From the NCBI RefSeq assembly GCF_030065535.1, contig NZ_JASJND010000006.1, positions 186,001 through 250,000 of the forward strand: 64,000 bases of DNA. Reading direction: 5' to 3'. Below the pieces are notes generated by a model. It was not told the DNA's origin. It did not search any database and saw only the letters and a program-made list of their open reading frames with translations. Below are positions 25,822 to 48,829 of the stretch, in pieces. This stretch comes from Microbacterium dauci (GTDB taxonomy: Bacteria > Actinomycetota > Actinomycetes > Actinomycetales > Microbacteriaceae). Within the stretch, counting starts at the first letter, position 1. Every line of letters begins with the position of its first letter. Made by a program: the position numbers and the translations under genes.

Positions 25822-26112
25822 ATGGCGCGATTGATCTATCACGGGAGCAACGTCCTCGAGATGAGTGACCGCACCCTCGCGCACGTCGAGGCGGTCGTGT
25901 CGTCGAAGCTCCGTCGTGGGGAGTCCTTCATGCTCACCGCCGCGACGAGTGCGCACGAGGGGAGCGGGCGGACGACGATTTGGGTCAATGCCGCCAGCAA
26001 CCTCGCGTATCGGTACCGACGCGACCGCCCCGCGCTTGACCGGACGTGGCTGGAGGAGTTGCGTACTTCGGCGAATTCCCCGGGCGGCATGCACCTGCCG
26101 GAAGAACGGTGA
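25822..26112 (+). CDS. DUF7882-like small protein
   Basis: 96-residue protein starting MARLIYHGSNVLEMSDRTLA, with SSKLRRGESFML in the middle and ANSPGGMHL near the end. This pattern matches a small family common in Microbacteriaceae (DUF7882; some members are mislabelled as ATP-dependent DNA ligase). No catalytic motif is visible. The function is unknown. Ribosome site AGGGGA supports this start over an upstream ATG at 25798. Confidence 0.75.
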   Translation: MARLIYHGSNVLEMSDRTLAHVEAVVSSKLRRGESFMLTAATSAHEGSGRTTIWVNAASNLAYRYRRDRPALDRTWLEELRTSANSPGGMHLPEER

Positions 26113-26119
26113 GTCGGGC

Positions 26120-27079: not shown

Positions 27080-27099
27080 GTCGTCCTCTCTCCGTCCTC

Positions 27100-27128
27100 G
27101 CCGGGTCCGTCGCAGCGACGGACCCGGC
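27100..27128 (-). terminator. Hairpin terminator after the SDR gene
   Basis: GCCGGGTCCGTCGC (27100-27113) and its exact complement (27115-27128) form a very strong stem just downstream of the minus-strand SDR gene ending at 27141. Confidence 0.7.
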
Positions 27129-27140
27129 TGACCCGACTGG

Positions 27141-28028: not shown

Positions 28029-28190
28029 CGAGGATTCCTCTCGGTCGTCGTCGGCGACGGTACGCGGCCGACCGGCCTGTCAGAGGGGGCTTGCTCCGCG
28101 GCATCCGCATTGCTAACCGTCCCGGCGCACGTGTGCGTACCGATCGGGCGCGGAACGCGCAAGCCCCGGCCACCAGTCGCGCCGCGGACA

Positions 28191-28196
28191 TAACGT
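28191..28196 (+). promoter_or_regulatory. Putative -10 element of the GH15 gene (leaderless)
   Basis: TAACGT with 6 nt to the ATG at 28203. No ribosome site is present. Confidence 0.45.
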
Positions 28197-28202
28197 GACA
28201 AC

Positions 28203-30002: not shown

Positions 30003-30033
30003 GGTCTCCGCTTCGCGCCGGCTCGCGAGGGCG

Positions 30034-33865: not shown

Positions 33866-33972
33866 GCGCTCACGCTAGGTGCGATCGGGCGCTTCCGAAT
33901 GGGGCTGGCGTTCGACGCGAATCCGATCTAAGCGACGGCGGGATGGTCGCCCACCTATCGGGATCGCATCGC

Positions 33973-34014
33973 GATGTAAAGGGTCGCGCGATGGCGTCCC
34001 GAGGTGCATAGCGT
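33973..34014 (+). promoter_or_regulatory. Long promoter block shared with 40053-40094
   Basis: GATGTAAAGGGTCGCG (33973-33988), 16 unrelated bases, then TGCATAGCGTCGC, whose TAGCGT (34009-34014) can serve as -10. Both blocks and their spacing are identical to those before the SDR gene at 40101. Here it is followed by a 25-nt leader with GGAGGA. Confidence 0.7.
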
Positions 34015-34039
34015 CGCACTGCATCGATCGGAGGAACAT

Positions 34040-35227
34040 ATGCAGACGCAGACGTACGAGTACCTCATCATTGGCGGTGGCATGGTCGCGGATGCCGCAG
34101 CCCGCGGCATCCGCGAACGAGACCAGACCGGCACGATCGGCATCCTGAGTGCCGACGTCGACCCGCCGTACACACGGCCCGCGCTGTCGAAGAAGCTCTG
34201 GACCGACCCCGACTTCACGTGGGAACAGGTGCCGCTCGACACGGAAGCGGCGACCGGCGCCGAGATTCGGCTCTCGACGCTCGTGACCGCGATCGACCGC
34301 TCCGCGCAGACCGTGACCACAGCCGAGGACGAGGTCTTCGGATACCGCCGGTTGCTGCTCGCGACCGGTTCGACGCCGAAGACGATCTCCGCACCCGATG
34401 ACGAGCGCGTGCTGTTCTTCCGCTCGGCGGAGGACTACCGCACGCTCCGCGAGCTCGCGGGTCGCGGTGGGCACTTCGTCGTGGTCGGTGGCGGCTACAT
34501 CGGCACCGAGATCGCGGCGGCGCTCGCCGGGAACGGTGTCGAGACGGAGCTGGTGTTCCCGGCAGAGGTGCTGGGCGACGACACGTTCCCGTCGGGCCTC
34601 GCACGCCGATACGAGGACCTCTTCCGGAACGGCGGCGTTCAGCTCACGTCGCGCTCTCGGGTGAGCGAGGTGCGCGAGGAGGGCAACGCCTTCCACGTCG
34701 TGCTCGACAGCGGAGAGGAACTGCGCGCGGACGTCGTCGTGATCGGCCTCGGTGCCGATCCGGTGATCGCGTTGGCGGATGCCGTAGGACTCGCGACCGA
34801 TGACGGCGTCCTCGTCGACGAGCACCTCGTCACGAACGATCCCGCGATCTGGGCTGCGGGCGACATCGCCGAGTACCCCGACCCGATCCTCGGCCGCACC
34901 CGCGTGGAGCACGTCGACAACGCGGAGGAAATGGGAGCCGCCGCCGGGCGCTCGATGGCCGGGGAGGACGTGCCGTACGCGCACACGCCGTACTTCTACT
35001 CGCAGGTGTTCGGGACGCGCTGGGAAGCCGTCGGCACCCTCGACCCCTCGAAGGACCCGCTCGTGGTCGAGCTCGACGAAGACCGGAGCGTTGTGTACTA
35101 CCGCGACGAGTCCGGGGCACCGGTCGGAGTGCTGCTGTGGAACGTCGAAAAGGCCCGCGACCTGGCGCGTGCCGTGCTCACCGACCGGGTCACCGATCCC
35201 GAGCGACTCCGCCTGCGGATCACCTGA
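34040..35227 (+). CDS. FAD/NAD-dependent reductase (ferredoxin/rubredoxin reductase or AIF-like)
   Basis: 395-residue flavoprotein. FAD motif IIGGGMVADAAARGIRE is at the N-terminus, the NAD motif VVVGGGYIGTEIAAAL in the middle, and WAAGDIAEYPDP before a C-terminal reductase domain. YTRPALSKKLW is typical of AIF/monodehydroascorbate-reductase-like enzymes. It likely passes electrons from NAD(P)H to a small carrier or quinone. GGAGGA precedes the ATG at 34040. It has the shared promoter block, so it is probably coregulated with the SDR at 40101. Confidence 0.88.
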   Translation: MQTQTYEYLIIGGGMVADAAARGIRERDQTGTIGILSADVDPPYTRPALSKKLWTDPDFTWEQVPLDTEAATGAEIRLSTLVTAIDRSAQTVTTAEDEVFGYRRLLLATGSTPKTISAPDDERVLFFRSAEDYRTLRELAGRGGHFVVVGGGYIGTEIAAALAGNGVETELVFPAEVLGDDTFPSGLARRYEDLFRNGGVQLTSRSRVSEVREEGNAFHVVLDSGEELRADVVVIGLGADPVIALADAVGLATDDGVLVDEHLVTNDPAIWAAGDIAEYPDPILGRTRVEHVDNAEEMGAAAGRSMAGEDVPYAHTPYFYSQVFGTRWEAVGTLDPSKDPLVVELDEDRSVVYYRDESGAPVGVLLWNVEKARDLARAVLTDRVTDPERLRLRIT

Positions 35228-35247
35228 TCGTGCGCCGTGGGGCGGGC

Positions 35248-35736
35248 TCAACCGGCCCGACCCCGCGGCCCGACCAGCAGCGAGAAGAGCCCGGCGCTGA
35301 AGACGAGCGCCGCGCCGAGCGCGACGAGTCCTGCCGTCCGGTCGAGCGCGAAGTCGACGATGAGGCTTGTGACGCCTGCCGTGAGCACCACGACGATGGC
35401 CATGTTCGCGACAAGAATGCGGCCGCCGTCCCGCACGAGGCGGGACTTCACGTGTTTCGCGAAGTGCAGCCGATGGACGACCACCACCGCCAGCCCGAGG
35501 AACGTCGAGGCGGCGGCGAGTGCCACGAGAGTGACGTATAGCCCGAGCTGCCACTCGTCGAGTTCAGGGAAGCGCGACTGAAAGGCGACCGCGAGGAGGA
35601 ACCCGCTGATGAGCTGCGTCCCGGTCTGCGTGACGCGGAGCTCTTGCAGCAGGTCGTTCCAGTTGCGGTCGGCGCGCTCGTTCGCCGTTTCGTTGCGACC
35701 GTCGTCCGGAGCGACGTCGCCTGCGGCGCCGCTCAA
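35248..35736 (-). CDS. DUF6328 family membrane protein
   Basis: 162-residue protein with a charged N-terminus (about residues 1-36, ending NDLLQELRVTQTGTQ) and four membrane helices. LLQELRVTQTGTQLISGFLL is characteristic of DUF6328. Function is unknown. Its ATG overlaps the stop of the DUF7218 gene by four bases, so the two are coupled. Convergent with the flavin reductase. Confidence 0.82.
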   Translation of the reverse strand: MSGAAGDVAPDDGRNETANERADRNWNDLLQELRVTQTGTQLISGFLLAVAFQSRFPELDEWQLGLYVTLVALAAASTFLGLAVVVVHRLHFAKHVKSRLVRDGGRILVANMAIVVVLTAGVTSLIVDFALDRTAGLVALGAALVFSAGLFSLLVGPRGRAG

Positions 35737-36005
35737 TGCGTCCGCAGCGAGCTGATCAGCTCGCTCTTCTTCAGCTTTGAGTACCCGGTCAGGCCGAGCT
35801 CCTTCGCGCGCGAGCGGAGTTCGGGGACCGTCCAGTCCTCGTAGTTGCCCGACTCGCCGCCCTTTCGCCCCACCCGCTTCCGCCCGGCTTTCGTCCCGCC
35901 GGTGGCATTCGAGATTCGTGCGGCCTTCTCCTTCGAAGCCCCGCCCTTTCGGAGCTCCTCGTACAGCTCGGGGTCCTTCAGACTCGAGGTGCGATTCTGC
36001 GGCAT
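35733..36005 (-). CDS. DUF7218 / Rho N-terminal (SAP-like) domain protein
   Basis: 90-residue basic protein. The first half (LKDPELYEELRKGGASKEKAARISN) matches DUF7218; the second half (WTVPELRSRAKELGLTGYSKLKKSELISSL) is a Rho N-terminal/SAP-like helix-extended-loop-helix that binds nucleic acid. The middle is Lys/Arg/Gly rich. It may be a stress or nucleoid-associated protein. Start at 36005 (MPQNRTSSL) follows GGAAGGAG. Confidence 0.82.
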   Translation of the reverse strand: MPQNRTSSLKDPELYEELRKGGASKEKAARISNATGGTKAGRKRVGRKGGESGNYEDWTVPELRSRAKELGLTGYSKLKKSELISSLRTH

Positions 36006-36102
36006 GTCGTGTCTCCTTCCGGCCGGAACGGAGCGGGAGGGTGCTCCATCGAAGCCATTCCGAGCCCAGCGAAGTCTGCCGAGCTCCTCCCGCAAAACCC
36101 CA

Positions 36103-36131
36103 TTGACAACGACGCAGCGACGGCGGACATT
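36103..36131 (+). promoter_or_regulatory. Putative promoter of the lipoprotein-CDF pair (leaderless)
   Basis: TTGACA (36103-36108), 17-base spacer, GACATT (36126-36131), then 6 nt to the GTG at 36138. The -35 is a perfect consensus match. Confidence 0.5.
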
Positions 36132-36137
36132 CTCATC

Positions 36138-36611
36138 GTGCGACGTCTTCTCTCCGCCCTCGTGGTTGCGCTGATCACGGCGCTCACGGTGACGGGGTGC
36201 GGCATCCGGATCCCCACCGACCCTGATGGCACGCTCGATCGCGTCCGCGATACCGGAGTCCTGCGGGCCGGTGCTTCACCCGCCGGCGATGCACTGACGG
36301 TGGCGGATGCCACGCCGTCGGGGCCGCTCGTCGAGCTCGTGGACCGCTTCGCGGCGTCTGAGGGGGCCGAGGTCGAGTGGACCGTCGGCGGTGAAGAGGA
36401 ACTCGTCGGCCGGCTCGAGGCGGGAGCGCTCGACCTGGTGATCGGTGACTTCAGCGAGCAGACGCCGTGGGCCGACCGGGTCTCGGTGACGCGTGGCATC
36501 CGCGGCGTCGACGGACTCGGCGATCGCCCGGTGGCCATCCTGCTGCCACTCGGTGAGAATGCGATGCAGGCCGCGCTCGAGGTGTTCATCGACGGCGAGG
36601 TCGAGCCGTGA
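36138..36611 (+). CDS. Lipoprotein with a fragment of a periplasmic-binding-protein fold
   Basis: 157-residue lipoprotein: VRRLLSALVVALITALTVTGC ends in a lipobox. The mature part contains RVRDTGVLRAGASP, LVELVDRFAASEGAEVEW and LEAGALDLVIGDF, which resemble the start of type-2 solute-binding proteins, but it is shorter than a full binding protein. It may be a minimal or degenerate binding protein. The GTG at 36138 is supported by the promoter; a longer frame exists upstream. Its stop overlaps the CDF start (GTGA). Confidence 0.72.
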   Translation: MRRLLSALVVALITALTVTGCGIRIPTDPDGTLDRVRDTGVLRAGASPAGDALTVADATPSGPLVELVDRFAASEGAEVEWTVGGEEELVGRLEAGALDLVIGDFSEQTPWADRVSVTRGIRGVDGLGDRPVAILLPLGENAMQAALEVFIDGEVEP

Positions 36612-37588
36612 AACGCGGCGGGATCGAGCGCGTCGGACGGACCGACCTGCCGCCGGAGCAGCGCCGCGCCCTGCGAAGCGCCATCCGGTGGGAGTGGTTC
36701 ACGATCGGCTACACGGTGGTGACCATCGCGCTGATCGCGTTCGTCGTCGGCGGTTCGCAGGCGATGAAGACCGCGTGGATCGAAGACATGCTGTCGTTGA
36801 TCCCGCAGATCGCCTTCCTCATCGCGTTGCTGTTCATCCGTCGACCGCCGTCGCGGTCGTTTCCGTTCGGACTCCATCGCGTGATGGGCGTCGGTCATCT
36901 CGTCGCGGGTGTCGCGCTGTTAGCCGTCGGCGGCAGCCTGGCGGTCGAATCGGCGATCGGACTGATCCGAGCGGAGCATCCGGCGATCGGCACCGTCCGG
37001 ATCTGGGGGCAGACCGTCTGGCTCGGCTGGTTCATGGTCGCCGTGATGAGCGTCATCGTGATCGGACCATTCATCTACGGGCACGCCAAGTCGAAGCTCG
37101 CACCGGTCCTGCACAACAAGGTGCTGTACGCCGACGCCGACATGGCGAAAGCGGACTGGACGACCACCGTGGCATCCATCGTCGGCGTCCTCGGCGTCGG
37201 CGTAGGGCTGTGGTGGCTCGACGGTGCGGCGGCGATCTTCATCTCGCTCGGAATCATCTGGGACGGGTACCGCAACGCGCGTGCGGCGATCTTCGACCTG
37301 ATCGACCAGCGTGCGCGCACGCACGACGACGCGCGCGAGGATCCGCTGGGGGAGCGCATCGTCCGCCGCGTTCGGCGCGAGCGGTGGGTGCGCGACGGCG
37401 GTGTGCGGATGCGCGACATGGGACAGGTGTTCCATGTCGAGGTGTTCGTCGTCCCCCGCCGACGCTTCGTCACCGTTCGCAGGATCGAGACGTTGAAGCG
37501 GACGGTTGTGGTGCTGGACTGGCGAATGCAGGACGTGTCGATCGTCGTGGTCGCTTCGCTTCCCGAAGAGATCCGCGATCGCTCGTAG
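36608..37588 (+). CDS. Cation diffusion facilitator family transporter
   Basis: 326-residue CDF-type metal transporter with about six helices. FPFGLHRVMGVGHL and DADMAKADWTTTVASIVGV are the family landmarks: the second contains the DxxxAD-type metal site region on helix 5. A C-terminal cytoplasmic domain follows (about residues 205-326). It likely exports divalent metal such as Zn or Mn. Translationally coupled to the lipoprotein upstream by a GTGA overlap, which suggests joint function at the envelope. Confidence 0.83.
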   Translation: MKRGGIERVGRTDLPPEQRRALRSAIRWEWFTIGYTVVTIALIAFVVGGSQAMKTAWIEDMLSLIPQIAFLIALLFIRRPPSRSFPFGLHRVMGVGHLVAGVALLAVGGSLAVESAIGLIRAEHPAIGTVRIWGQTVWLGWFMVAVMSVIVIGPFIYGHAKSKLAPVLHNKVLYADADMAKADWTTTVASIVGVLGVGVGLWWLDGAAAIFISLGIIWDGYRNARAAIFDLIDQRARTHDDAREDPLGERIVRRVRRERWVRDGGVRMRDMGQVFHVEVFVVPRRRFVTVRRIETLKRTVVVLDWRMQDVSIVVVASLPEEIRDRS

Positions 37589-37651
37589 CTCCGTGGCGCG
37601 ATGGCCGCAACCCCGTCACGGACCGGCCTCGGTGCCTGCACGATGGGCGGC

Positions 37652-40024
37652 ATGGACGACGCACGCGCACTCGACGACGACACGCTCGACGCCCTCGACC
37701 TGTGGTGCCGCGCAGCCGACTATCTCAGCGTCGGACAGATCTACCTCCTCGAGAACCCGCTCCTTCGGGAGCCGCTGACAGCGGAGCAGGTCAAACCGCG
37801 GTTGCTCGGGCACTTCGGTACCGTCCCGGGGTTGAACCTCATCTACGCGCATGCGAATCGGGCCATCCGTGATCGCGACCTCGATGCGCTGTACATCGCG
37901 GGTCCCGGCCACGGTGGACCGGGCATGGTCGCGAACGCGTGGCTGGAAGGCACGTACACCGAGCGCTACCCCGAGATCACGACGGATGCCGCGGGCATGC
38001 AGCGCCTCTTCCGGCAGTTCTCCTTCCCCGGCGGCATCCCCTCGCATGCCGCACCCGAGACGCCGGGGTCGATCCACGAAGGCGGTGAACTCGGCTACTC
38101 GCTGAGTCACGCGTACGGCGCCGCGTTCGACAATCCCGACCTGACGGTGTTCTGCGTCATCGGTGACGGCGAGGCAGAGACGGGACCGCTCGCGACGGCG
38201 TGGCATTCGAATAAGTTCCTGAACCCGACCACCGACGGCTCGGTGCTCCCGATCCTGCATCTCAACGGGTGGAAGATCGCGAACCCGACGGTGCTGTCGC
38301 GGATCCCGGAGGCGGAGCTGGTCTCGCTGCTGCGCGGGTTCGGTCACGAGCCGATCCTGGTGACGGTGGATGCCGCCGACGAGGCGCGCGACGTGCACCG
38401 CCGGTTCGCCGAGGCGATGGACACCGCGCTCGACGCGATCGCAGGCATCCGTGCCGCCGCCGCCGATGGGGACACAGGACGGCCGATCTGGCCGATGATC
38501 GTCCTGCGTTCACCGAAGGGCTGGCGCGGTCCTGCAGTCGTCGACGGGCACCCGGTCGAAGGGACCTGGCGTGCGCATCAAGTTCCCGTGAGCGGTGCGC
38601 GGGACGATGCCGAGCATCGGGCGGTCCTCGAGGAATGGCTCCGGTCGTACCGCCCCGCGGAACTGTTCGACGAGACCGGCCGGCCGATCGCGCCGATTCG
38701 CGCGCTCGCACCCGAAGGCGAGCGGCGGATGTCGGCGACGCCGCGCGCGAACGGCGGTCTGCTGCGAGCCGATCTCCGGCTGCCCGACATCGAATCGTTC
38801 GCACAGCACGTCAACCGGCCCGGCGCGGTCGACGCGGGCGCGATGTCGGTGCTCGGCGAGTGGCTGCGGCAGGTGATCGACGACAATCCGCAGACCTTCC
38901 GCCTGTTCGGGCCCGACGAGGTGGCATCGAACCGGCTCGCCCCGGCGGTGTACGAGGCGAGCCCGCGTCAGTGGGTCGCGGCATCCGATCCACTCGACGA
39001 GCACCTCGCGAGAGCCGGACGGATCATGGAGGTGCTGAGCGAGCACCAGTGTCAGGGTTGGCTCGAGGGATACCTGCTCACTGGGCGGCACGGCGTCTTC
39101 ACGTCGTACGAGGCCTTCGTTCACATCGTCGATTCGATGTTCAACCAGCACGCGAAATGGCTCGAATCTGCGGCCGAGGTCGAGTGGCGCGCGTCCATCG
39201 CCAGCCTGAACTACTTACTGTCGAGCCACGTCTGGCAGCAGGACCACAACGGCTTCACGCACCAGGACCCGGGCTTCCTCGATGTGGTGCTCAACAAAAG
39301 CCCCGACGTCGTCCGTGCGTATCTGCCCATCGACGCGAACACCCTGCTCGCGACGATGGCGCACTGTCTGCAGACCACGGATTGCGTGAACGTCGTGGTC
39401 GCGGGAAAGCAGCCGACCCCGCAATGGCTCGACATGGATGCCGCCGTCGCGCACGTCGAACGCGGCATCGGCGTCTTCGACTGGGCCGGCACGGACGGCG
39501 ACCCCGATGTGGTGCTCGCGGCCGCGGGGGACGTGCCGACCACCGAGGTCATCGCGGCCGCGGACCTCCTGAGGACGGTCGCGCCGGATGTCGCTGTGCG
39601 CGTGGTCAACGTCGTCGACCTCTTCCGGCTGCAGCCGCCCGACCTTCACCCGCACGGCCTCCCCGAGGCGGAGTTCGACGCGCTCTTCCCGCCAGGTGTG
39701 CCGACCGTCTTCGCGTATCACGGCTATCCGTGGACCATCCACCGGCTCGCTTACCGTCGCGCGGCGCATGCAGATCTGCACGTGCACGGGTATCGGGAGC
39801 GTGGGACGACGACGACCCCGTTCGACATGCTCATGCTGAACGATCTCGACCGGTTCTCGCTCGCGACGGACGCGTTGCAGCGGCTGCCGGGCGGCGGTGA
39901 GCGATTCGCGGACGCGATCGACGATCTGGCCGAGCGTCGCGACCGTGCGGGTGCGCACACGCGGGAGTTCGGCGTCGACCACGCCGAGATCACCGAATGG
40001 CGGCTGGGCGACGAACGGCGGTGA
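37652..40024 (+). CDS. Phosphoketolase (XFP)
   Basis: 790-residue TPP enzyme that cleaves xylulose-5-phosphate and/or fructose-6-phosphate to acetyl phosphate. [56 protein letters not shown] and [11 protein letters not shown] are diagnostic. Three in-frame ATGs are possible (37601, 37643, 37652); no clear ribosome site separates them and I use the one that starts nearest the conserved region. The gene stands alone in a redox/stress region and gives a carbon-conserving route to acetyl phosphate. Confidence 0.93.
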
Positions 40025-40052
40025 GCGTCGCGCGTTATCGGCTCAGGCGCGG

Positions 40053-40094
40053 GATGTAAAGGGTCGCGAAGTTGTGGGTGGGACTGCATAGCGT
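40053..40094 (+). promoter_or_regulatory. Long promoter block shared with 33973-34014
   Basis: GATGTAAAGGGTCGCG (40053-40068), 16 bases, then TGCATAGCGTCGC with TAGCGT at 40089-40094. Six bases separate TAGCGT from the ATG at 40101, so this mRNA would be leaderless. Sequence and spacing are the same as the block before 34040. Confidence 0.7.
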
Positions 40095-40100
40095 CGCGGC

Positions 40101-40901
40101 ATGAGCGATTTCTCCCCGAAGCATGCCATCGTGACCGCCTCGGACTCCGGCATCGGTGCGGCGACCGCCATCGCGCTCGCCGAAGCCGGAATGGACGTCG
40201 GGGTCACGTGGCATTCGGACGACGAGGGTGCTGCGCGCACGGCGGACGCCGTCCGCGCTCGCGGGCAGCGGGCCGTGGTCGCACAGTTCGACGCGACCGA
40301 CTTCGACGCAGTCCCCGGTGTGATCGACGGTCTCGCAGACGAGCTGGGCGGGCTGGACGTGCTCGTGAACAACGCGGGTGGCGGCGCGGGCGGCCCGTTC
40401 CTCGACCTCGACCTCGACGCGTGGCGCAAAGACATCGCGCTCAACCTCGACGGTGCGTTCCTCACGCTCCACACGGCGGCGAAGCGGATGGTGTCGGCAG
40501 GGCGTGGTGGTCGACTGATCGCGGTGACGAGCGTCCACGAACACCAACCGCGGACGGGGTCGGCCGCGTACGTCGCGGCGAAGCACGGGCTCGGCGGCCT
40601 CATCAAGACGATGGCGCAGGAGCTCGGCGCGCACGGCATCACCGCGAACTCGGTCGCGCCTGGCGAGATCGCGACGCCGATCAACGACATGGATGCCGAC
40701 GACGCGGCGAACACGCACCGGCCCGGCATCCCGCTCGCCCGCCCCGGTCACCCGGACGAGATCGCCGACGTCATCCGCTTCTTGGCCTCGGCGCGGTCGT
40801 CGTACGTGACCGGCGCGAGCTGGGTCGTCGACGGCGGCATGCTGCAGATGGGGCCGCAAGCGGGCTCGCACCTCGAGTCGGACGAATGGCGGAACGGATG
40901 A
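40101..40901 (+). CDS. SDR family oxidoreductase
   Basis: 266-residue SDR, probably NADP(H)-dependent. Cofactor motif VTASDSGIGAAT has TAS in place of TGx; NNAGGG is present; catalytic residues are the Ser in VTSVHEH and YVAAK. C-terminal VTGASWVVDGGM is family-typical. First gene of a tightly overlapped operon with a 57-residue protein and an SQR-like flavoprotein. It shares its promoter block with the reductase at 34040. Confidence 0.88.
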   Translation: MSDFSPKHAIVTASDSGIGAATAIALAEAGMDVGVTWHSDDEGAARTADAVRARGQRAVVAQFDATDFDAVPGVIDGLADELGGLDVLVNNAGGGAGGPFLDLDLDAWRKDIALNLDGAFLTLHTAAKRMVSAGRGGRLIAVTSVHEHQPRTGSAAYVAAKHGLGGLIKTMAQELGAHGITANSVAPGEIATPINDMDADDAANTHRPGIPLARPGHPDEIADVIRFLASARSSYVTGASWVVDGGMLQMGPQAGSHLESDEWRNG

Positions 40902-41071
40902 GCGAGAAGCGGTCGCGCGAGCGGCATGAAGAATTGACTGCCGCGCCGAAGGCCACGGAGGACGACGCCGCGCCTCGTATCGACGTCACCAAGCGCGGCG
41001 ACGTGACCCGGATCGACGTGCGTGACGATGCCGCAGTGCGGCCCGGTCGAGGACAGGAGGGGAGCTCGTGA
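40898..41071 (+). CDS. 57-residue charged protein in an SDR/flavoprotein operon
   Basis: Small acidic-basic protein (MSEKRSRERHEELTAAPKA...). Its ATG overlaps the SDR stop by four bases and its stop overlaps the GTG of the next gene by four bases, so it is translated as part of the operon. It contains a near repeat, RIDVTKRGDV then RIDVRDD, and no hydrophobic core, so it is probably disordered. No family recognised. It may bridge or regulate the two enzymes. Confidence 0.7.
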   Translation: MSEKRSRERHEELTAAPKATEDDAAPRIDVTKRGDVTRIDVRDDAAVRPGRGQEGSS

Positions 41072-42261
41072 GCGGATCACGCGCGGACCGCCGCATCGTC
41101 GTCATCGGTGGCGGCAACGCCGGGCTGTCGATTGCAGGGCGGCTGCAGCGACGTCGCCGCGGTGAGGTCATCGTCATCGAACCCCGGATTTCGCACGTGT
41201 ACGCGCCGCTGCAGTCGCACATCGCTGGTGGCGTCGCGCGTGTGTCCGAGGCGACCCGCCCGCAGTCGCGCGTGACGCCGAAGGGCGTTCGGTGGGTGCA
41301 GGACACGGTGACCGCGGTCGCCCCTGAGCGCAGTGCCGTGGTGCTCGCCTCGGGCGTGACGATCGGGTACGACGACCTGGTCATCGCCGCCGGCATCGAG
41401 CAGAACTGGGACAGCGTGCCCGGACTCGCCGCCGCGATGGCGGACGAGCGAGGCGTGTCGAACTACACCCTCGAGCTCGCGGCGAAGGCGTCGCGTGCCC
41501 TCCGCGATCTGACGAGCGGAACCGTCGTCTTCACCCAGCCACCTGAGCCGGCCTCGGCTGCCGGCGTCGCGCAGAAGCCCATGTATCTGGCCGCGCAGTG
41601 GTGGCGGTCGAAGGGGGTCGCGCGCGACATCCGGATGGTCTTCGTGTCACCCGAGCCCACCGCATTCGCGAATCCGTCGGTGTCCGCGGAGTTGCAGCGC
41701 AAACTGGATGAGTATGGCATCGAGACGCGGTTCTCGTCTGACCTGCTCGAGGTGGATGCGGACCGTCGCGAGGTGACGATCGGCCGTGGCATCCACCGGG
41801 AAACCATCGCCTACGACCTGCTGCACGCGGCGCCGCCGCAGCGCGCCGCGGGCTGGATCGCCGAGAGCGGGCTGGCCGATGCGGACGGGTTCGTCGACAT
41901 CGACCCGCGGACGTTGCGCCATCGCACGCACCAGAACGTGTGGGCGCTGGGGGATGCGGCAGGCGTGCACACCCGCCGTTCCGGCGGTGCCATCCGGAAG
42001 CAGGCGCAGACACTGGCGAAGAATCTCGCGGATGCCACTGCCGGTCGCCCGCTTAGCGCGGCTTATGACGGGTACACCGTGACCCCGTTCACAGTCAGTC
42101 GGCGCACGGTCGTCTTCGCGGAGTTCGACGGCGACGACCGTCTGCAGACGACCGTCCCGTTCTGGAAGACGCTGTATCGCGAACGTCGCCTGACCTGGAT
42201 CTTCGACCGACACATCCTGCCGAAGGTGTACTGGCACCTCATCCTGCGAGGGCTCGCGTGA
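41068..42261 (+). CDS. SQR-like FAD oxidoreductase lacking cysteine
   Basis: 397-residue flavoprotein related to sulfide:quinone oxidoreductases: IVVIGGGNAGLSIAGRLQRR, YAPLQSHIAGGV, FTQPPEPASAAGVAQKPMYL, and NVWALGDAAGVHTRRSGGAI. The region that in SQR reads CAGAPQK has alanine (A164) in place of the catalytic cysteine, and the whole protein has no cysteine. It therefore cannot oxidise sulfide by the usual route. It may be an NADH or other donor:quinone oxidoreductase. The C-terminal amphipathic helix YRERRLTWIFDRHILPKVYW is kept, suggesting membrane contact. Confidence 0.85.
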   Translation: MSGSRADRRIVVIGGGNAGLSIAGRLQRRRRGEVIVIEPRISHVYAPLQSHIAGGVARVSEATRPQSRVTPKGVRWVQDTVTAVAPERSAVVLASGVTIGYDDLVIAAGIEQNWDSVPGLAAAMADERGVSNYTLELAAKASRALRDLTSGTVVFTQPPEPASAAGVAQKPMYLAAQWWRSKGVARDIRMVFVSPEPTAFANPSVSAELQRKLDEYGIETRFSSDLLEVDADRREVTIGRGIHRETIAYDLLHAAPPQRAAGWIAESGLADADGFVDIDPRTLRHRTHQNVWALGDAAGVHTRRSGGAIRKQAQTLAKNLADATAGRPLSAAYDGYTVTPFTVSRRTVVFAEFDGDDRLQTTVPFWKTLYRERRLTWIFDRHILPKVYWHLILRGLA

Positions 42262-42274
42262 GAAAGGACGAAAC

Positions 42275-42484
42275 ATGACGTTGTCGAAGGGTGACCGGGT
42301 GAGCTGGTCGACGTCGCAAGGACGCACGCGCGGGAAGGTCGTCGAAGAACGGACGCGCGACTTCCAGTTCGAGGGCCAAAGGTTCACCGCTTCGGCCGAC
42401 GAGCCGGCCTACATCGTCGAGTCGGAGAAGACCGGCGCAAGGGCCGCGCACAAAGGCTCGGCCCTCCGCAAACTGAAGTCCTGA
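42275..42484 (+). CDS. DUF2945 (HVA1 tudor-like) small protein
   Basis: 69-residue basic protein. SKGDRVSWSTSQGRTRGKV, then the charged KLKS end, match the DUF2945/HVA1 TUDOR family of small beta-barrel proteins. It starts 13 bases after the SQR-like gene with AAAGGA just upstream, so it belongs to the same transcript. Function unknown; relatives are linked to stress. Confidence 0.85.
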   Translation: MTLSKGDRVSWSTSQGRTRGKVVEERTRDFQFEGQRFTASADEPAYIVESEKTGARAAHKGSALRKLKS

Positions 42485-42587
42485 TCCGCCCGGTGCTCGA
42501 GCGGCCAGGATGTTGTCAACCCCCGCGGCGGCTCGGCCGCGACGCGTTCAGATAGGACCTCCAACCGATTACGTGAGGAGCACACCC

Positions 42588-43043
42588 ATGGGTCAGATCA
42601 TCGAGACCATCGACGTCGCCGTCCCTGTCCGGACCGCGTACAACCAGTGGACGCAGTTCGAGTCGTTCCCGGCGTTCCTCGACGAGGTGAAGTCGATCAC
42701 ACAGACTGATGACACGCACACCCGTTGGACGGTCAACGTCGGCGGTGTCGAGCGCGAGTTCGACGCCGAGATCACGGAGCAGCACCCGGACGAGCGCGTC
42801 GCATGGAACAGCGTCGGCGGTGACACCGAGCATGCGGGCGTCGTAACGTTCCACAAGCTGAGCGACACCGAGACCCGCGTGACCGTGCAGCTGGACTGGG
42901 AACCCGAGGGACTGGCCGAGAAGATCGGGTCCCTCATCGGCGCCGGCGGTCATGCCGTCAAGAAAGACCTCAAGAACTTCAAGCAGTTCATCGAGACGCG
43001 AGGCGACGCGACGGGCGCGTGGCGAGACGACGTCGACGCGTGA
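42588..43043 (+). CDS. SRPBCC family (START/cyclase-like) protein
   Basis: 151-residue protein of the SRPBCC fold, usually a lipid or polyketide binding module. MGQIIETIDVAVPVRTAYNQWTQFESFP is the typical start of the cyclase/dehydrase type. No catalytic residues stand out. GAGGAG precedes the ATG at 42588. In the ancestor without the island this gene would have ended 15 bases before the yajQ stop, convergent with it; the island begins 16 bases after its stop. Confidence 0.88.
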   Translation: MGQIIETIDVAVPVRTAYNQWTQFESFPAFLDEVKSITQTDDTHTRWTVNVGGVEREFDAEITEQHPDERVAWNSVGGDTEHAGVVTFHKLSDTETRVTVQLDWEPEGLAEKIGSLIGAGGHAVKKDLKNFKQFIETRGDATGAWRDDVDA

Positions 43044-43058
43044 CCCTCGCGGTCGCGC

Positions 43059-43080
43059 TCAGCGGTAGTTGACGAACTGC
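43059..43080. repeat. Left attachment site (attL), duplicate of yajQ 3' end
   Basis: 22 bases starting TCAGCGGTAG and ending GAACTGC, identical to 48341-48362. A small dyad (AGTT-CGTC-AACT on the minus strand) lies inside, as expected for recombinase core sites. Confidence 0.85.
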
Positions 43081-43150
43081 CCCGGGGTGGTTGAGGCTCT
43101 CGGGCCCACGTAGAGATCCCCGGATTTCCGCGGATGTTCGAGAGCCAACT

Positions 43151-43209
43151 GATCGGGTGGAAACCACCAGATCGGGCATGTTGCGGACTTTTTGCGGACT
43201 TCGCGGACT
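43151..43209. repeat. Inverted repeat and GCGGACT direct repeats next to attL
   Basis: GGTGG-AAA-CCACC flanked by GATC on both sides (43151-43173), followed by three GCGGACT copies starting at 43183, 43194 and 43203. They could be accessory binding sites for a recombinase. The 43081-43259 stretch has no convincing gene. Confidence 0.45.
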
Positions 43210-43259
43210 CGCTCCGGTCTCCAGAACGGGCCGGGGTCCGGCAGACCTCCCGGTCGCGA

Positions 43260-43607
43260 CTATCCCCGGAGCGCTGCCGCGGCGGTGTCGAGTGCCTCGG
43301 TCGCCACGCGGTAGTACGCCCAGCGTCCTCGCTGTTCGCGAGTCGCGAGCCCTGCATCGACGAGCTGTTTCATGTGATGTGACACCGTCGGCTGTGACAG
43401 GCCCACGGGCTCGGTGAGATCGCACACACACGCTTCACCGTCGGGGGACGCGGCGATCAACGACAGCAGCCGGATTCGTGTCGGATCGCCGAGGGCCTTG
43501 AAGGTCTTGGCGGTCCGCTCGGCATCTTCGGCAGAAATGACGCCGCTGATGACGGTGCCACAGCAGCCGTCGAGGGCCTCGGGTAGGAGGGGCAGCGTCG
43601 TGGACAT
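43260..43607 (-). CDS. arsR: ArsR-family arsenite-responsive repressor
   Basis: 115-residue winged-helix repressor. It has cysteines C15 and C16 (DGCCG) in the N-terminal arm, the position known for As(III) binding in Corynebacterium glutamicum ArsR, and C60/C62 (ACVCDLTEPVGLSQPTVSHH) at the start of the DNA-binding helices. This set fits a thiolate site linking the two subunits. It diverges from the ArsO-like gene and probably controls it and itself. Ribosome site AGAGGA precedes the ATG. Confidence 0.92.
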   Translation of the reverse strand: MSTTLPLLPEALDGCCGTVISGVISAEDAERTAKTFKALGDPTRIRLLSLIAASPDGEACVCDLTEPVGLSQPTVSHHMKQLVDAGLATREQRGRWAYYRVATEALDTAAAALRG

Positions 43608-43698
43608 GGGTCGATCCTCTCACGTCATATTGACATCTGTCGATACATCGATCAGTCTCTATCCATTGATTGTCGTCGATGTGAGATTGGAGGCCACG

Positions 43699-45009
43699 GT
43701 GGACGCAATGTTGCCAGTGGTGGTGATCGGTGCAGGGCCGCAGGGGCTCGCTGCGGCGGCGCATCTGGTCGAGAGGAACGTGCCTGTCGTCGTGCTTGAG
43801 GCGGGGGACACCGCCGCGTCTGCCGTCCGCGAGTGGGGACACGTTCGGTTGTTCTCGGAATGGCCCGAACTGATCGACGGCGCCAGCGCGCGGCTGCTGT
43901 CACAGACGGGCTGGGAGGCGCCGACGTCAGGGTTCCCGACCGGTGCGCAGTGGATCGAGCAGTACCTCGCCCCGCTCGCTACCGCGCTGGGTGATCGTGT
44001 CCGGTTCGGAGCTCGTGTAACGGGTGTGTCGCGGCGAGGTCGGGATCGACTTGTCGACGCCGATCGAGGATCGCATCCATTCACAGTCCATGTCCGTGAC
44101 GCGGCAGGGGACGAACATCGGCTCGAGGCGCGTGCGGTTCTCGACGCGTCCGGCACGTGGTCCACTCCGAATCCTGCCGGCGCGAATGGGCTCCCCGCAC
44201 TTGGAGAGGCACGCGCCGCCGATGTCCTGTCATACCGGATCCCCGATTTCCGTGATCGGAGCGGATTCGAGGGCAAGCACACGATCGTCGTCGGGTCCGG
44301 GCACTCAGCGGTGACGGCCGTGCTCGCGCTGGCGCGCATGGTTCGCAGGGACCCGTCCACGTCGGTGACGTGGGTGCTGCGTCGGGTAACAGCCGATAAC
44401 GCGTTCGGCGGTGGGGACGCGGATGACCTTCCCGCACGCGGCGCGCTCGGGATGCGAGCCAAGGAGTTCGTCGACGCGGGACTTGTCACGATCGCCACCG
44501 GCTTCCGCGTAGAGCGTGTTGAGCGGAACGAAGACCGCGCCATCCTGACCGCCGAGGACGGTCGCAAGCTCGAAGCGGACCGCGTCGTCGTTCTGACCGG
44601 ATTCCGTCCGGACCTCTCTTTCCTGTCAGAGATTCGACTCGAACTGGATCCGACGTTGCAAGCGCCCGTGAGGGTGGCGGTCGAGATCGACCCGAATATT
44701 CACTCGTGTGGTTCCGTCGCGGCGACCGGCGCCGCTGATCTCGCGCAACCCGAACCCGCCTTCTACCTTGTGGGCGCGAAGTCCTACGGACGCGCCCCGA
44801 CATTCCTTGCTCTCACCGGGTACGAGCAGGTGCGCAGCGTCGTTGCCGAACTCGCCGGCGACCATGAAGCCGCGCGCCGGGTGGAATTGTCGCTCCCAGA
44901 GACCGGGGTCTGCGGAGGCGCCGGGCTGTTCGACGCCGCCGGGCCCATCGGGGGAGCATGCTGCGCGCCCCCGGTCCTGCAGATCGGAAGGATGCCGGCA
45001 GCTGTGTAA
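43699..45009 (+). CDS. ArsO-like flavin-dependent monooxygenase of the arsenic cluster
   Basis: 436-residue FAD/NADPH flavoprotein: VVVIGAGPQGLAAAAHL near the N-terminus and VVGSGHSAVTAVLAL as the NADPH motif. The C-terminal tail is cysteine-rich (GVCGGAGLF and GGACCAPPV), a feature remembered for ArsO-type proteins in actinobacterial ars operons. Its exact reaction is unsettled. GGAGG lies 5 bases before the GTG at 43699, so that start is preferred to ATG 43708 and to a long upstream extension. It faces ArsR divergently. Confidence 0.82.
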   Translation: MDAMLPVVVIGAGPQGLAAAAHLVERNVPVVVLEAGDTAASAVREWGHVRLFSEWPELIDGASARLLSQTGWEAPTSGFPTGAQWIEQYLAPLATALGDRVRFGARVTGVSRRGRDRLVDADRGSHPFTVHVRDAAGDEHRLEARAVLDASGTWSTPNPAGANGLPALGEARAADVLSYRIPDFRDRSGFEGKHTIVVGSGHSAVTAVLALARMVRRDPSTSVTWVLRRVTADNAFGGGDADDLPARGALGMRAKEFVDAGLVTIATGFRVERVERNEDRAILTAEDGRKLEADRVVVLTGFRPDLSFLSEIRLELDPTLQAPVRVAVEIDPNIHSCGSVAATGAADLAQPEPAFYLVGAKSYGRAPTFLALTGYEQVRSVVAELAGDHEAARRVELSLPETGVCGGAGLFDAAGPIGGACCAPPVLQIGRMPAAV

Positions 45010-45025
45010 GCCCGCCGTTCAAACA

Positions 45026-45061
45026 AGTGTGGGCGCCACCTGGTCTGGTGGCGCCCACACT
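45026..45061. terminator. Bidirectional hairpin terminator inside the island
   Basis: A perfect 15-bp stem (45026-45040 with 45047-45061; left arm AGTGTGGGCGCCACC) with a 6-base loop lies between the convergent arsO-like and arsC genes. Confidence 0.85.
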
Positions 45062-45068
45062 CGTTTCG

Positions 45069-45467
45069 TCAGCGGTTGAGAAGCGTTGCCTCGATCTTCT
45101 CGGCAACGGCTTCACGAAGGGGACGGACCGCATCCGCGTCCCATGCCGCCGGATTGGGGAACGACCACTCCAGCACCTCACCGCGCGGGCGCGACGGGAG
45201 CTCAAGCCCGGGCTTCATGAGGACCACGACGTCGGCCTCATCGAGATCCGACTCGGTCACCGCGCGCGGGACGCGGTCGGTGATGTCCATGCCAAGCTCG
45301 GCGACCGTCGCTGCGACCGCGGGGTTCACGGCGTCAGCCGGTGCAAGTCCGGCGGAGGTCGCGGTGAACCGGTCTCCCGCGAGGTGCTCGAGCAGCGCTG
45401 CACCCAGCTGTGAGCGGCCGGCGTTGTGCTGGCAGATGAACAGGACGGTCGGGGCTGTGGTGGTCAT
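45069..45467 (-). CDS. arsC: Arsenate reductase, single-cysteine (mycothiol-type) ArsC
   Basis: 132-residue LMW-phosphatase-fold arsenate reductase. The P-loop is CQHNAGR; no other cysteine is present, which fits the arsenate-mycothiol transferase type that uses mycothiol and mycoredoxin. The usual Asp-Pro acid motif reads FPNP, with Asn in place of Asp. It differs from the three-cysteine ArsC at 23420. It lies 19 bases downstream of the ArsR-ArsC fusion on the same strand. ATG 45467 is preferred to a long upstream frame. Confidence 0.87.
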   Translation of the reverse strand: MTTTAPTVLFICQHNAGRSQLGAALLEHLAGDRFTATSAGLAPADAVNPAVAATVAELGMDITDRVPRAVTESDLDEADVVVLMKPGLELPSRPRGEVLEWSFPNPAAWDADAVRPLREAVAEKIEATLLNR

Positions 45468-45486
45468 GCGTGATTCTCGTTTCGGG

Positions 45487-46161
45487 TCAGGTGGTAGCGA
45501 GTCTGGTGGCGAGGTCGGAGATGCGGCGCTCGAGCTCGTCGTATGCGGTGTCGAAGGCGTCGTCGCTTCCTGTACGGACAGGATCAGGAATGGACCAATG
45601 CAAGTCACCGCTGACCCCGAGCTCCTCGTGCGCACTGTCGCACACCGTGATGACGAAGTCGGACTCGGTCAGCACCGACTCGAGCGGCTGGGGCTTCCCC
45701 TCGGCGAGGGGCAGCGAATGGCGCTCGGCGGTCGCCACAGCGCCGGAGGCAATGTGCTCCGCAGGGTGCGTGCCCGCCGACGTGGCAGGAATGCTGCTGC
45801 GGGTGGCCCACAATGCCGCGGCGAGTTGAGAGCGCGCCGAGTTCGCCGTGCAGACAAAGACCACGCGCTGTGCGCGCTCGGTACGGCCCGGGATCAAGTC
45901 GGCCAGCGCGGACGCAGTCAGATGCACGTAGCTCCGCCGCTTGTCCGCCTCCGAGCGTGACCGGGCGACCATGCCCACCGTCTCGAGAACGTTCAAGTGG
46001 TGCGACACCAAATTCGAGTTCATCCCCATAGCGACCGCGATCTCCGTCGGCGACAGATCGCCGAGCGTGAGGAGATCCACGATTTGCAAACGCGACGGAT
46101 CGCCGAGTGCGGAATGCCGCGCGGCACGCATCTCCAGGTCTTGATTTTGCTCAACTTTCAT
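45487..46161 (-). CDS. ArsR-type regulator fused to an LMW-phosphatase (ArsC-like) domain, island copy
   Basis: 224-residue protein with the same two-domain plan as the one at 23838: winged helix in about residues 10-82 (LGDPSRLQIVDLL, NLVSHHLNVLETVG) and an ArsC/LMW-phosphatase domain from about residue 99 with P-loop CTANSAR (C104-R110) and WSIPDP. It diverges from the aquaglyceroporin gene. The two fusion proteins are clearly homologous but well diverged, so the island copy is not a recent duplicate of the chromosomal one. Confidence 0.9.
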   Translation of the reverse strand: MKVEQNQDLEMRAARHSALGDPSRLQIVDLLTLGDLSPTEIAVAMGMNSNLVSHHLNVLETVGMVARSRSEADKRRSYVHLTASALADLIPGRTERAQRVVFVCTANSARSQLAAALWATRSSIPATSAGTHPAEHIASGAVATAERHSLPLAEGKPQPLESVLTESDFVITVCDSAHEELGVSGDLHWSIPDPVRTGSDDAFDTAYDELERRISDLATRLATT

Positions 46162-46210
46162 TGACTCAATCTTGACTGAACAATATTTCGGCCGTCAAGA
46201 TGGGGCTGCC
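46162..46210. promoter_or_regulatory. Divergent regulatory region of fusion and aquaglyceroporin genes
   Basis: 49 bases with repeated TCAA/TTGA elements; CATTG-CTCAATCTT is shared with the equivalent region at 24499-24512. The dyad here is imperfect, unlike the chromosomal one. Confidence 0.5.
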
Positions 46211-46966
46211 ATGAACGACGCATCACCCACTTCCGCCGCCCAGCCGCACCTGATCCGCCGACTCCTCGCAGAGTTCATCGGCACCGGCGTCCTTGTTGCC
46301 GTCGTCGTTGGATCCGGGATCGCGGCGCAGCGACTGTCGCCGGATGATGTCGGGCTCCAGCTCCTGCAGAACAGCCTCACGACGGCGCTCGGGCTCTCCG
46401 TCCTGATCCTGATGCTCGGCCCTGTTTCCGGCGCGCACTTCAACCCGGTCATCTCGCTGGCCGACTGGTTCCTCGGTCGTCGCGCTCGTGCTGGACTCTT
46501 GCCTCGCGTTGCGTTGGCGTATCTCGCAGCTCAGGTCGTCGGCGGCGTTGTCGGGACTCTTCTCACATCCGCGATGTTCGAGGTGGCGCCTTCGTTTTCT
46601 GGCAACGACCGCGCAACAGTCGGTCACCTCGTGGGTGAGGTCGTTGCCACCGCGGGACTGGTGCTGCTCATCTTCGCGCTCGCGCGGACGTCCACCGCCG
46701 CGGTCACGGCGGCCGCCGTCGGCGCCTACATCGGAGCGGCGTACTGGTTCACCGGCTCCACATCATTCGCGAATCCTGCCGTGACGATCGCCCGGATGTT
46801 CACCGACACGTTCGCCGGCATCGCCCCAATCGCAGTCCTCCCGTTCCTCATGGCCCAGATTCTGGGGGCTGCGCTCGGCATCGCCCTCCTGCTTGCTCTC
46901 TACCCGACGGCTACTCGCACTGCTGGCGACGCCGTGATCCCCACGCAACCCGACTCCCAGCACTGA
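46211..46966 (+). CDS. Aquaglyceroporin (MIP family), island copy
   Basis: 251-residue channel with the MIP half-loops GAHFNPVISL (NPV) and FANPAVTIARMF (NPA), plus AYIGAAYWFTGSTSF shared with the chromosomal copy at 24551. As there, the ArsR/ArsC neighbours suggest arsenite exit, since no pump gene is present. ATG 46211 was chosen; an upstream in-frame ATG at 46172 would lie in the operator. The downstream flavoprotein starts 11 bases later, so both are in one transcript. Confidence 0.84.
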   Translation: MNDASPTSAAQPHLIRRLLAEFIGTGVLVAVVVGSGIAAQRLSPDDVGLQLLQNSLTTALGLSVLILMLGPVSGAHFNPVISLADWFLGRRARAGLLPRVALAYLAAQVVGGVVGTLLTSAMFEVAPSFSGNDRATVGHLVGEVVATAGLVLLIFALARTSTAAVTAAAVGAYIGAAYWFTGSTSFANPAVTIARMFTDTFAGIAPIAVLPFLMAQILGAALGIALLLALYPTATRTAGDAVIPTQPDSQH

Positions 46967-46977
46967 AAGGCACACCC

Positions 46978-48354
46978 ATGCACCTTGTCGCCATCGGCGG
47001 AAGCGACGCCGGCATCTCGACAGCTCTCCGCGCCCGCGAACTCGACCCGTCCGTCGACGTCACCGTCGTCGTCGCCGACGCCTATCCGAACTTCTCCATC
47101 TGCGGAATCCCCTACTACTTCTCCCGCGAAGTACAACCGTGGCAGTCCCTGGCCCACCGGACCCACGCCGACCTCGAAGCAACCGGCATGAACCTGCGCC
47201 TGAACACCCTCGCGACCGGCATCGACGTCGCTGCGCGCACCCTCACGGTCCGGGACGAGCACGGCACCGAATCGACGATCCCGTACGACGCGCTCATGGT
47301 CGGCACTGGGGCATCCCCGTCAACCGCCGGAATCGCCGGTCTCGACGAACTCGGCCCCGCGGACGGTGTGCACCTCCTGCACTCGATGGGAGACACCTTC
47401 GCACTCGAGCAGTTCCTCGACACCCGCCAGCCCGAGAGCGCGATCATCGTCGGCGCGGGCTACGTCGGACTCGAAATGGCCGAAGCGCTCACCGTCCGTG
47501 GATTGAAAGTCACGCAACTGCAACGCGGACCCGAAGTCCTCTCCACCCTCGACCCCGAACTCGGCGCCCTCGTCCACGACGAACTGACACGTCACGATGT
47601 GAGCGTCTACACGGACACCCTGGTCGACGCAGTCAGTCGAGACGGCGCGCAGCTCACGGTCACCGGCACCCGCCACGGTGACCCGATCGCGCACACCGCG
47701 GACCTTGTGCTCGTCGTCGTAGGGGTCCGACCCAACACGAGCCTCCTCACCGCCGCTGGCGCACAGACCGGTGCGGGCGGCGCGGTCCTCGTCGACGAGC
47801 AAATGCGCACCGGACTCCCCAACTTGTGGGCAGCGGGTGACGGCATCGTCACCCACCACCGACTCCTCGGCGTCACGTACCTTCCCCTCGGCACCACCTC
47901 TCACAAACAGGGCCGCGTCGCCGGCGAGAACGCGATCGGCGGGAACGCCACCTTCGGCGGCAGCCTCGGCACCCAAGTCGTGAAGGTCTTCGACCTCGTC
48001 GCTGCCCGCACCGGCCTCCGCGACCACGAAGCTGCCGCAGCAGGATTTGCGCCCCACAGTCACACCGCGATCGCCGATGACCACAAGCGCTACTACCCCG
48101 GCGCAACACCGATCAGCATTCGCATCACCGGGGACACCCGCGACGGCCGACTCCTCGGCGCACAACTCGTCGGTACCCGAGGTGCCGAGATCTCCAAGCG
48201 CGTCGACACATACGCCACCGCGCTCCACCACGAGATGACCGTGCCGGCGATGAGCGACCTTGACCTCTCCTACACGCCCCCGCTCGGATCGCCCTGGGAT
48301 GCGGTGCAGATGGCGACCCAGGCGTGGGAGCAGGCGCGCGTCAGCGGTAGTTGA
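46978..48354 (+). CDS. CoA-disulfide-reductase-like FAD oxidoreductase
   Basis: 458-residue flavoprotein. FAD motif [17 protein letters not shown]; active cysteine C42 in [10 protein letters not shown], as in CoA-disulfide reductases and NADH peroxidases; NAD motif [22 protein letters not shown]. It likely reduces a low-molecular-weight disulfide or peroxide during arsenic stress. Its last codons and stop fall inside the right attachment repeat, antisense to the yajQ 3' end. The partner thiol is unknown. GAAAGG precedes the ATG. Confidence 0.88.
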
Positions 48355-48362
48355 CGAACTGC
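48341..48362. repeat. Right attachment site (attR) in yajQ
   Basis: 22 bases identical to 43059-43080. They encode the last residues and stop of YajQ on the minus strand and the last residues and stop of the CoA-disulfide-reductase-like protein on the plus strand. Confidence 0.85.
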
Positions 48363-48829
48363 AGGTCGACGTCGAGGTCGGCGGCCTTCAGCAGGCGCTG
48401 GACCTCCTGCAGGTCGTCGCGGGACTTCGACTGCACGCGCAGCTCGTCGCCCTGGATCTGCGACTTGACCGACTTCGGGCCCTCGTCGCGGATCATCTTG
48501 CTGATCTTCTTGGCGTCCTCGCTCGAGATGCCCTCTTTGAGGGTCGAGACGATGCGGAACTCCTTGCCCGAGGCCTGCGGCTCGCCCGAGTCGAGGCTCT
48601 TCAGCGAGATGCCGCGCTTGATGATCTTCGACTGGAACACGTCGAGCACGGCCTTCGCCCGCTCGTCGCTGTTCGCCTTGATGAGGATCGACTCGCCGCT
48701 CCACTCGATCGAGGCGCCGGTGCCCTTGAAGTCGTAGCGCTGCTCGACCTCCTTGCGCGCCTGGTTGAGCGCGTTGTCCGCCTCCTGGCGGTCGATCTTG
48801 GAGACGATGTCGAATGAGCTGTCAGCCAT
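48341..48829 (-). CDS. yajQ: YajQ family nucleotide-binding protein
   Basis: 162-residue YajQ protein: [16 protein letters not shown] at the start and [10 protein letters not shown]...FVNYR at the end, with length usual for the family. Relatives bind cyclic-di-GMP or RNA. The gene is intact. Its conserved 3' end is the integration site of the arsenic island, which keeps the coding sequence whole. TAGACT 6 nt before the ATG suggests a leaderless mRNA. Confidence 0.93.

Follow-up and report, generated by a model that had tools for sequence, protein, structure and literature searches.

An arsenic gene block at the 3′ end of yajQ in Microbacterium dauci as a probable remnant of a tyrosine-integrase genomic island

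Introduction

How does a block of arsenic genes come to lie between two exact copies of the end of a protein-coding gene, and can such a block still move? The question is raised by a stretch of 64,000 nucleotides from Microbacterium dauci (contig NZ_JASJND010000006.1, positions 186,001 to 250,000; hereafter the window), in which a 5.28-kb segment with arsenic genes adjoins the 3′ end of yajQ. An original prediction, made from the letters of the window alone, described the segment as an island inserted site-specifically into yajQ. Based on a comparison with other genomes of the genus and with named genomes of more distant bacteria, we propose that the segment very likely remains from a genomic island of the tyrosine-integrase type, inserted at the yajQ 3′ end, which has lost its integrase together with its right-hand arm repeats.

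Results

The duplicated end of yajQ and its left-hand arms

The segment is bounded by an exact 22-bp repeat, TCAGCGGTAGTTGACGAACTGC, whose two copies (43059-43080 and 48341-48362; Table 1) have a start-to-start spacing of 5282 bp. They are the only copies in the 2.88-Mb, 13-contig genome, even when up to three mismatches are allowed; about 6e-6 chance copies of a given 22-mer would be expected for the base composition assumed. The right copy forms the stop-codon end of yajQ, so that the core is duplicated with one copy at the yajQ 3′ end, as in the islands described below, and the left copy follows the end of an SRPBCC gene (43043) by 15 bp. The perfect repeat, its spacing and its left flank are thus as originally described. 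A tRNA gene was considered as the target and rejected, the nearest one (Tyr, 49808) lying about 1 kb upstream of yajQ.

Integrase arm-type repeats with the motif GCGGACT stand to the right of the left copy. Paired arms of this kind occur once in the window, against 0.00 expected from 100 shuffles. Because two of them lie at offsets of exactly 107 and 118 from the core, within the ranges (107-109 and 118-120) that characterize islands at yajQ, the left repeat is very probably a true left attachment (att) half-site, attL.

Integrase islands at yajQ in the genus

The core was searched in 366 genomes of the genus. Two core matches were found in 14, and 11 of these were followed, leaving out the M. 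dauci genome itself, G180 and G097, the last of which turned out to have an island. In 10 of the 11 an open reading frame (ORF) lies near or touches the yajQ end, convergent with yajQ; the ten ORFs form one homologous group and all are PF00589 tyrosine recombinases. In G364 the second core match looks like chance. No integrase stands beside yajQ at any of 30 comparison loci, a contrast with the ten two-core genomes that is only indicative: the loci were the first listed and not a random draw, one was read on the wrong side (L010) and one comes from G364 (L053). A profile (A1) built from the ten recombinases and searched against 361 genomes gave matches at E <= 1e-40 in 98, of which 29 reach 385 bits. 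The integrase lies at the yajQ end in 25 of these 29, including one in which yajQ is cut by a contig end (G319); in G237, G271, G092 and G309 the stretch read holds no YajQ. The search for recombinase genes next to duplicated yajQ ends that the original prediction had suggested therefore yielded 25 integrase-bearing islands within the genus.

These islands share a near-uniform att layout. Arms of the form GCGGACT/C precede the core on the yajQ side by 55 and 44 bp in 23 of the 25, the exceptions being G114 (56 and 45) and G144 (a single arm at 55). At the far half-site, arms occupy offsets of 107-109 and 118-120 in all 20 islands read, with that of G307 assigned on the assumption of a circular contig. 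Two viral contigs with an integrase (L307 and L308, identical over the stretch printed) carry, near 7164 and in one stretch, P arms 66 and 55 bp before the core, the core itself, and P′ arms at 107 and 118. This is likely the arrangement expected of an attP site, though a tandem junction would look alike. Six further viral-contig records (L304, L305, L306, L309, L310 and L329) have an integrase relative with yajQ directly downstream, like an integrated prophage; against cultured phages, a tblastn search with one integrase of the group gave matches below 60% identity only.

An occupied site can be compared with island-free ones in G114. To the left of its far core stands DNA similar to what island-free relatives (G310, G010, G113 and others) have left of yajQ, and its yajQ has a different stop codon and an unchanged protein end. 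The 25 islands, the occupied site of G114 and the attL match of the window all bear out the proposal of site-specific insertion into a protein gene and not a tRNA gene.

The right-hand end of the window block

What distinguishes the window block from these islands is its right-hand end. The attR arms that would stand some 55 and 44 bp ahead of the core are missing, and GCGGAC is absent from the 300 bp left of 48341. The block contains no tyrosine integrase convergent with yajQ, and the flavoprotein gene is its last gene. PF00589 has no match on the contig of the window; all nine matches of the genome are on other contigs, and against the integrase profile the genome scores 206 bits at best, where the yajQ group reaches at least 385. 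As integrase and right-hand arms are missing, the block is, judged on its sequence, a decayed derivative and no complete member of the yajQ-island group, and most likely an immobile one. The idea of a complete mobile unit is therefore not sustained: there is no recombinase, and the right end is without the arms seen in 25 islands. With neither, a polymerase chain reaction for a circular form, proposed earlier as a check, would likely be negative.

Other blocks without an integrase

The strict attL signature was searched in 159 genomes with no mismatch allowed; the search misses some islands (for example in G117), so its counts are lower bounds. It was found in at least 14 genomes: that of the window, eight with a yajQ integrase (G140, G157, G163, G204, G267, G307, G319 and G322) and five others. 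Like the window, G320 (4.6 kb) and G062 (8.3 kb) have attL arms and the core at yajQ and lack near-yajQ arms. Neither stretch has a tblastn match to the 80 integrases, and none of 10 ORFs scanned, five per genome, is a PF00589 protein; one ORF of G062 resembles another recombinase type (rve), with a score below the threshold. G334 has kept its right arms along with short integrase matches, the six shown spanning 28-50 residues. For G107 and G284 the contig stretches read were short and contained no yajQ. By eye, worn sequences resembling near-yajQ arms are visible left of the core at two loci with no integrase nearby (L018 in G022, L023 in G028), which are possibly older island remnants.

Integrase-bearing islands with arsenic cargo

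Two genomes, G155 and G322, have yajQ islands that retain the integrase and place ArsC, ArsR, monooxygenase and ArsC genes inside attL. They resemble the window in target, core, attL arms and the arsenic genes next to attL, and differ from it in possessing the integrase and a complete right end. G155 additionally encodes, by Pfam, an ArsR-ArsC fusion, a TrwC relaxase, a cadmium transporter and P-type ATPases; in G322, ORFs with the same length and start as the relaxase and integrase ORFs of G155 occupy the corresponding places. The two islands share DNA at 98.5% identity over 15,057 bp, in an alignment that starts at the core, and at 99.2% over 10,035 bp, whereas identity is 87.8% across 493 bp of the yajQ ends. 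Since the islands are so much more alike than the gene at which they lie, there is good evidence, from sequence identity, that an island was recently transferred between the two species. The left flanks show no significant match to each other. Within this metal-resistance island (L442, L425, L423, L444), G322 has about 13.5 kb of extra DNA.

Cargo between the repeats

The genes between the repeats of the window (Table 1) belong to families that support the predicted arsenic cargo (ArsR, ArsC, ArsR-ArsC and MIP), and all six still look intact. The exact roles of the monooxygenase, the ArsC proteins and the coenzyme A (CoA)-disulfide-reductase-like protein are putative, because their scores lie below the curated NCBIfam cut-offs; the MIP channel presumably has an AqpS-like role. 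The last residues and the stop codon of the flavoprotein are encoded by the right repeat. Truncation of this gene was considered and rejected, its tail of 7 residues after AWE being inside the 4-15 range of 29 homologues. Near full-length relatives of the arsenic block occur in three genomes (G018, G349 and G290) at 75-76% identity, and 7 plasmid records carry portions that cover 4-66% of the block at 71-77% identity. Among the plasmids bearing parts of the module are those of Herbiconiux, Agreia, Cnuibacter and Frondihabitans.

Table 1. Features of the window at and around the yajQ locus
Feature	Position	Strand	Basis
Further block, accessory-gene patchwork, outside the 5.28-kb element	23360..43058		away from yajQ in 8 near relatives
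SRPBCC gene (polyketide cyclase-like), present left flank of the island	42588..43043	+	PF03364
Left core repeat, putative attL core, duplicated yajQ 3′ end	43059..43080	+	exact repeat; with arms fits attL pattern of yajQ islands
Putative integrase arm-type repeats GCGGACT at 43183, 43194 and 43203 (P′ arms)	43183..43209	+	pattern match
ArsR/SmtB-family regulator	43260..43607	-	PF01022; NF033788 above cut-off
FAD-dependent monooxygenase-like protein	43699..45009	+	weak ArsO-family similarity, 60 bits against cut-off 425
LMWP-type arsenate reductase-like protein (ArsC)	45069..45467	-	PF01451; NCBIfam arsenate reductase models below cut-off
ArsR-ArsC fusion protein	45487..46161	-	PF01022 and PF01451
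MIP/aquaporin-family channel	46211..46966	+	PF00230
CoA-disulfide-reductase-like flavoprotein	46978..48354	+	TIGR03385, 329 bits, below curated cut-off 579
Right core repeat, yajQ 3′ end	48341..48362	+	exact repeat; island side without GCGGAC for 300 bp
yajQ, target gene, open, ends ...VNYR-stop	48341..48829	-	NCBIfam NF003819/PRK05412, 205 bits against cut-off 146

The neighbourhood of the block

The wider surroundings of yajQ were compared in 15 genomes picked mainly by similarity around this gene. In 8 of them the sequence matching window 20.7-23.35 kb stops 840-864 bp away from yajQ, and G114 has the same order with its island in between. In four others (G330, G145, G309 and G111) it already stops near window 19.2 kb, at a distance of 2.1-3.4 kb from yajQ, and in two (G091 and G172) there is a match at yajQ only. 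Since the DNA around 23.35 kb lies so near to yajQ in relatives, the stretch from 23.36 to 43.06 kb is non-ancestral beside this gene as well; parts of it are scattered in relatives. The 5.28-kb block is part of a wider non-ancestral region (23.4-48.3 kb), suggesting that DNA was added repeatedly at the yajQ spot. An outer att site at the left edge, at about 23.4 kb, was sought and dismissed, no core being present there within 3/15 or 6/22 mismatches. At this edge (23420-25210) lies a second set of ORFs resembling ArsC, an ArsR-ArsC fusion and a MIP channel; the 23.6-25.2 kb and 45.3-46.9 kb stretches share about 64% DNA identity.

The SRPBCC region has a match in 242 of 361 genomes. No YajQ is present within about 1.5 kb on either side of the best 29 SRPBCC loci in other genomes, and the closest SRPBCC-yajQ pair among the matches listed (about 40 genomes, by eye) is some 87 kb apart (G091). 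The empty site originally proposed is thus not the ancestral arrangement, as another stretch neighbours yajQ in 8 of the 15 genomes.

yajQ integrases beyond the genus

Among named genomes, the best 80 of 242 relatives were scanned; as these were picked by similarity to the Microbacterium integrases, the share of yajQ among them is no general frequency. A locus was labelled yajQ where YajQ lay within 2 kb or a reversed core followed the integrase. By this definition 38 of the 80 loci are at yajQ, 36 with the integrase beside the gene and 2 with it at the far end. In the latter (L239, Oerskovia; L241, Luteimicrobium) the integrase seemingly adjoins the distal core, and the L241 stretch does not contain yajQ itself. 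A further 16 loci lie at a motif of the 3′ end of ychF (L261, L253 and 14 others), labels that rest on a 12-bp motif and are confirmed as YchF by Pfam for one (L261); 26 were assigned to neither yajQ nor ychF. On a tree built by a quick method the yajQ label requires 3 changes, where shuffled labels average 26.9; one row of this tree (L228) was translated in the wrong frame and sits on an absurdly long or placed branch. In the loci examined, yajQ is thus a protein-gene target common to integrases of eight named actinobacterial families. One contig recorded as Stenotrophomonas maltophilia P13 (L224/G231) bears a Microbacterium-type yajQ island; the record is probably misnamed or mixed.

No publication linking yajQ with an integrase, an integration or attachment site or a genomic island was found in a search that left most subscription journals and supplements outside, and the term yajQ is absent from PMC12884075; a broader search brought up other genes as targets. 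The earlier remark that yajQ is little described as a target agrees with the literature within that reach; a prior description elsewhere is possible.

Discussion

What history would leave an arsenic block with one complete and one incomplete att site at yajQ? From the layout shared by the group we infer recombination at the yajQ core: the integrases would recombine the core of an element (approximately CGGTAGTTGAYGAAC) with the identical sequence that ends yajQ. The element would bring its own copy of the gene end, leaving the YajQ protein whole. In the lineage of the window, a deletion somewhere between the core and the end of the final cargo gene would then have removed the integrase and the right-hand arms. 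What is left over would be an arsenic block resembling a cis-mobilizable element (CIME), probably immobile.

Several observations weigh against this history. The same island with its integrase is in no genome examined, so we infer the deletion of the integrase end rather than see it, and the arsenic genes of G155 and G322 are only 64-74% identical in DNA to those of the window where they align and are arranged in another way. The flavoprotein gene at the supposed deletion edge has no clear truncation, a homologue (L103) having a similar end, ARVSA; the odds of decay are unaffected by this intact tail, as they rest on the missing integrase and arms. The empty site expected by the original prediction, the SRPBCC gene, 15 bp and yajQ, was not found in relatives, and the comparison genomes are relatives of which none is conspecific. 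Eight of the 25 reference islands have one or two stops inside the integrase match, so that a number of their integrases may be defective; for G155 and G322 the stop simply closes an ORF of 366 residues. In G104 and G114 the match covers the C-terminal two thirds only, and in G154 a C-terminal match of 113 positions is all that is left at yajQ.

Could the block have arisen in another way? The absence of a recombinase and the non-ancestral left flank, together with similar arsenic modules at other genomic places in relatives, would suit a repeat produced by chance or by segmental duplication, with the arsenic genes brought in by homologous or illegitimate recombination and no integrase involved. 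We regard this as very improbable, given the arm pair at the spacing of the group beside the left repeat and the minute chance expectation for a given 22-mer. It is also improbable, if somewhat less so, that the block is a non-autonomous but mobile satellite served in trans by the integrase of a co-resident or incoming yajQ element. Its identical cores and its attL arms would allow this, and the configuration recurs in G320 and G062. Against it stand the near-yajQ arms, missing here and present at least once in each of the 25 integrase-bearing islands, and the best integrase-profile match of the genome, which falls far short of the scores of the yajQ group.

A further scenario is a fuller version of the decayed-island explanation and not its opposite. 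The arsenic block may have been the outer member of a tandem at yajQ, the outer element losing its integrase and a younger inner element then being excised. Arm ends like those of a second element can be seen by eye left of the far core in G231, G307, G144 and G304 (in G304 and G144 with arms at 41 and 53 bp), and the left stretches read for G144, G304 and G307 hold no second integrase of the group. Accretion in tandem, followed by decay, has been described for other islands (PMC5704250). As the window has no third core and no further arm set, we consider this version possible but on the whole unlikely, and retain as the preferred reading a remnant of a yajQ integrase island that has lost its integrase end.

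How does such a remnant compare with known systems? A CIME is a decayed integrative and conjugative element (ICE) or integrative and mobilizable element (IME) that keeps attL and attR (PMC5704250). As in a CIME, the window has a core duplicated at the 3′ end of a gene and has kept its cargo, and integration and transfer genes, presumably once present, are not among the six genes. Its attL consists of core and arms and its attR of the core only; unlike in a CIME, the right site is thus a core without arms, which makes even cis-mobilization doubtful. The combination of integrase with relaxase or mobilization genes that defines an IME is absent from the window block and present in G155 (integrase and TrwC relaxase). 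Islands associated with dusA likewise pair one integrase group with one protein gene and have very variable cargo, but they insert within the 5′ end of their gene in Proteobacteria, whereas yajQ islands lie at the 3′ end in Actinobacteria (PMC4482086). PAISt of Streptomyces turgidiscabies, at bacA, is actinobacterial, uses a protein-gene 3′ end and a tyrosine recombinase, and is modular with several att copies; it differs from the window in its 8-bp palindromic core, its size of 674 kb and its working integrase (PMC4057263). BreLI, a probable ICE of Brevibacterium, shares the actinobacterial host, the protein-gene 3′ end and a short perfect repeat (12 bp), and differs in its target, a ribonucleotide reductase gene, its length of about 96 kb and its lanthipeptide cargo (PMC5719810).

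What are the implications of a yajQ island that has lost one end? An orphan metal-resistance block is now tied to a specific group of mobile elements, and the core with its arms at fixed spacing provides an exact signature for complete and decayed members alike. With it one can test how frequently the loss of an island's integrase leaves resistance genes fixed for good. Tentatively, and as a speculation that may well not hold, yajQ might be a widespread, unnamed actinobacterial hot spot with its own integrases and a near-invariant att layout, where a stereotyped decay, with the integrase end lost and attL kept, fixes resistance genes as 'one-armed' islands that a new yajQ element, on inserting next to them, could recapture.

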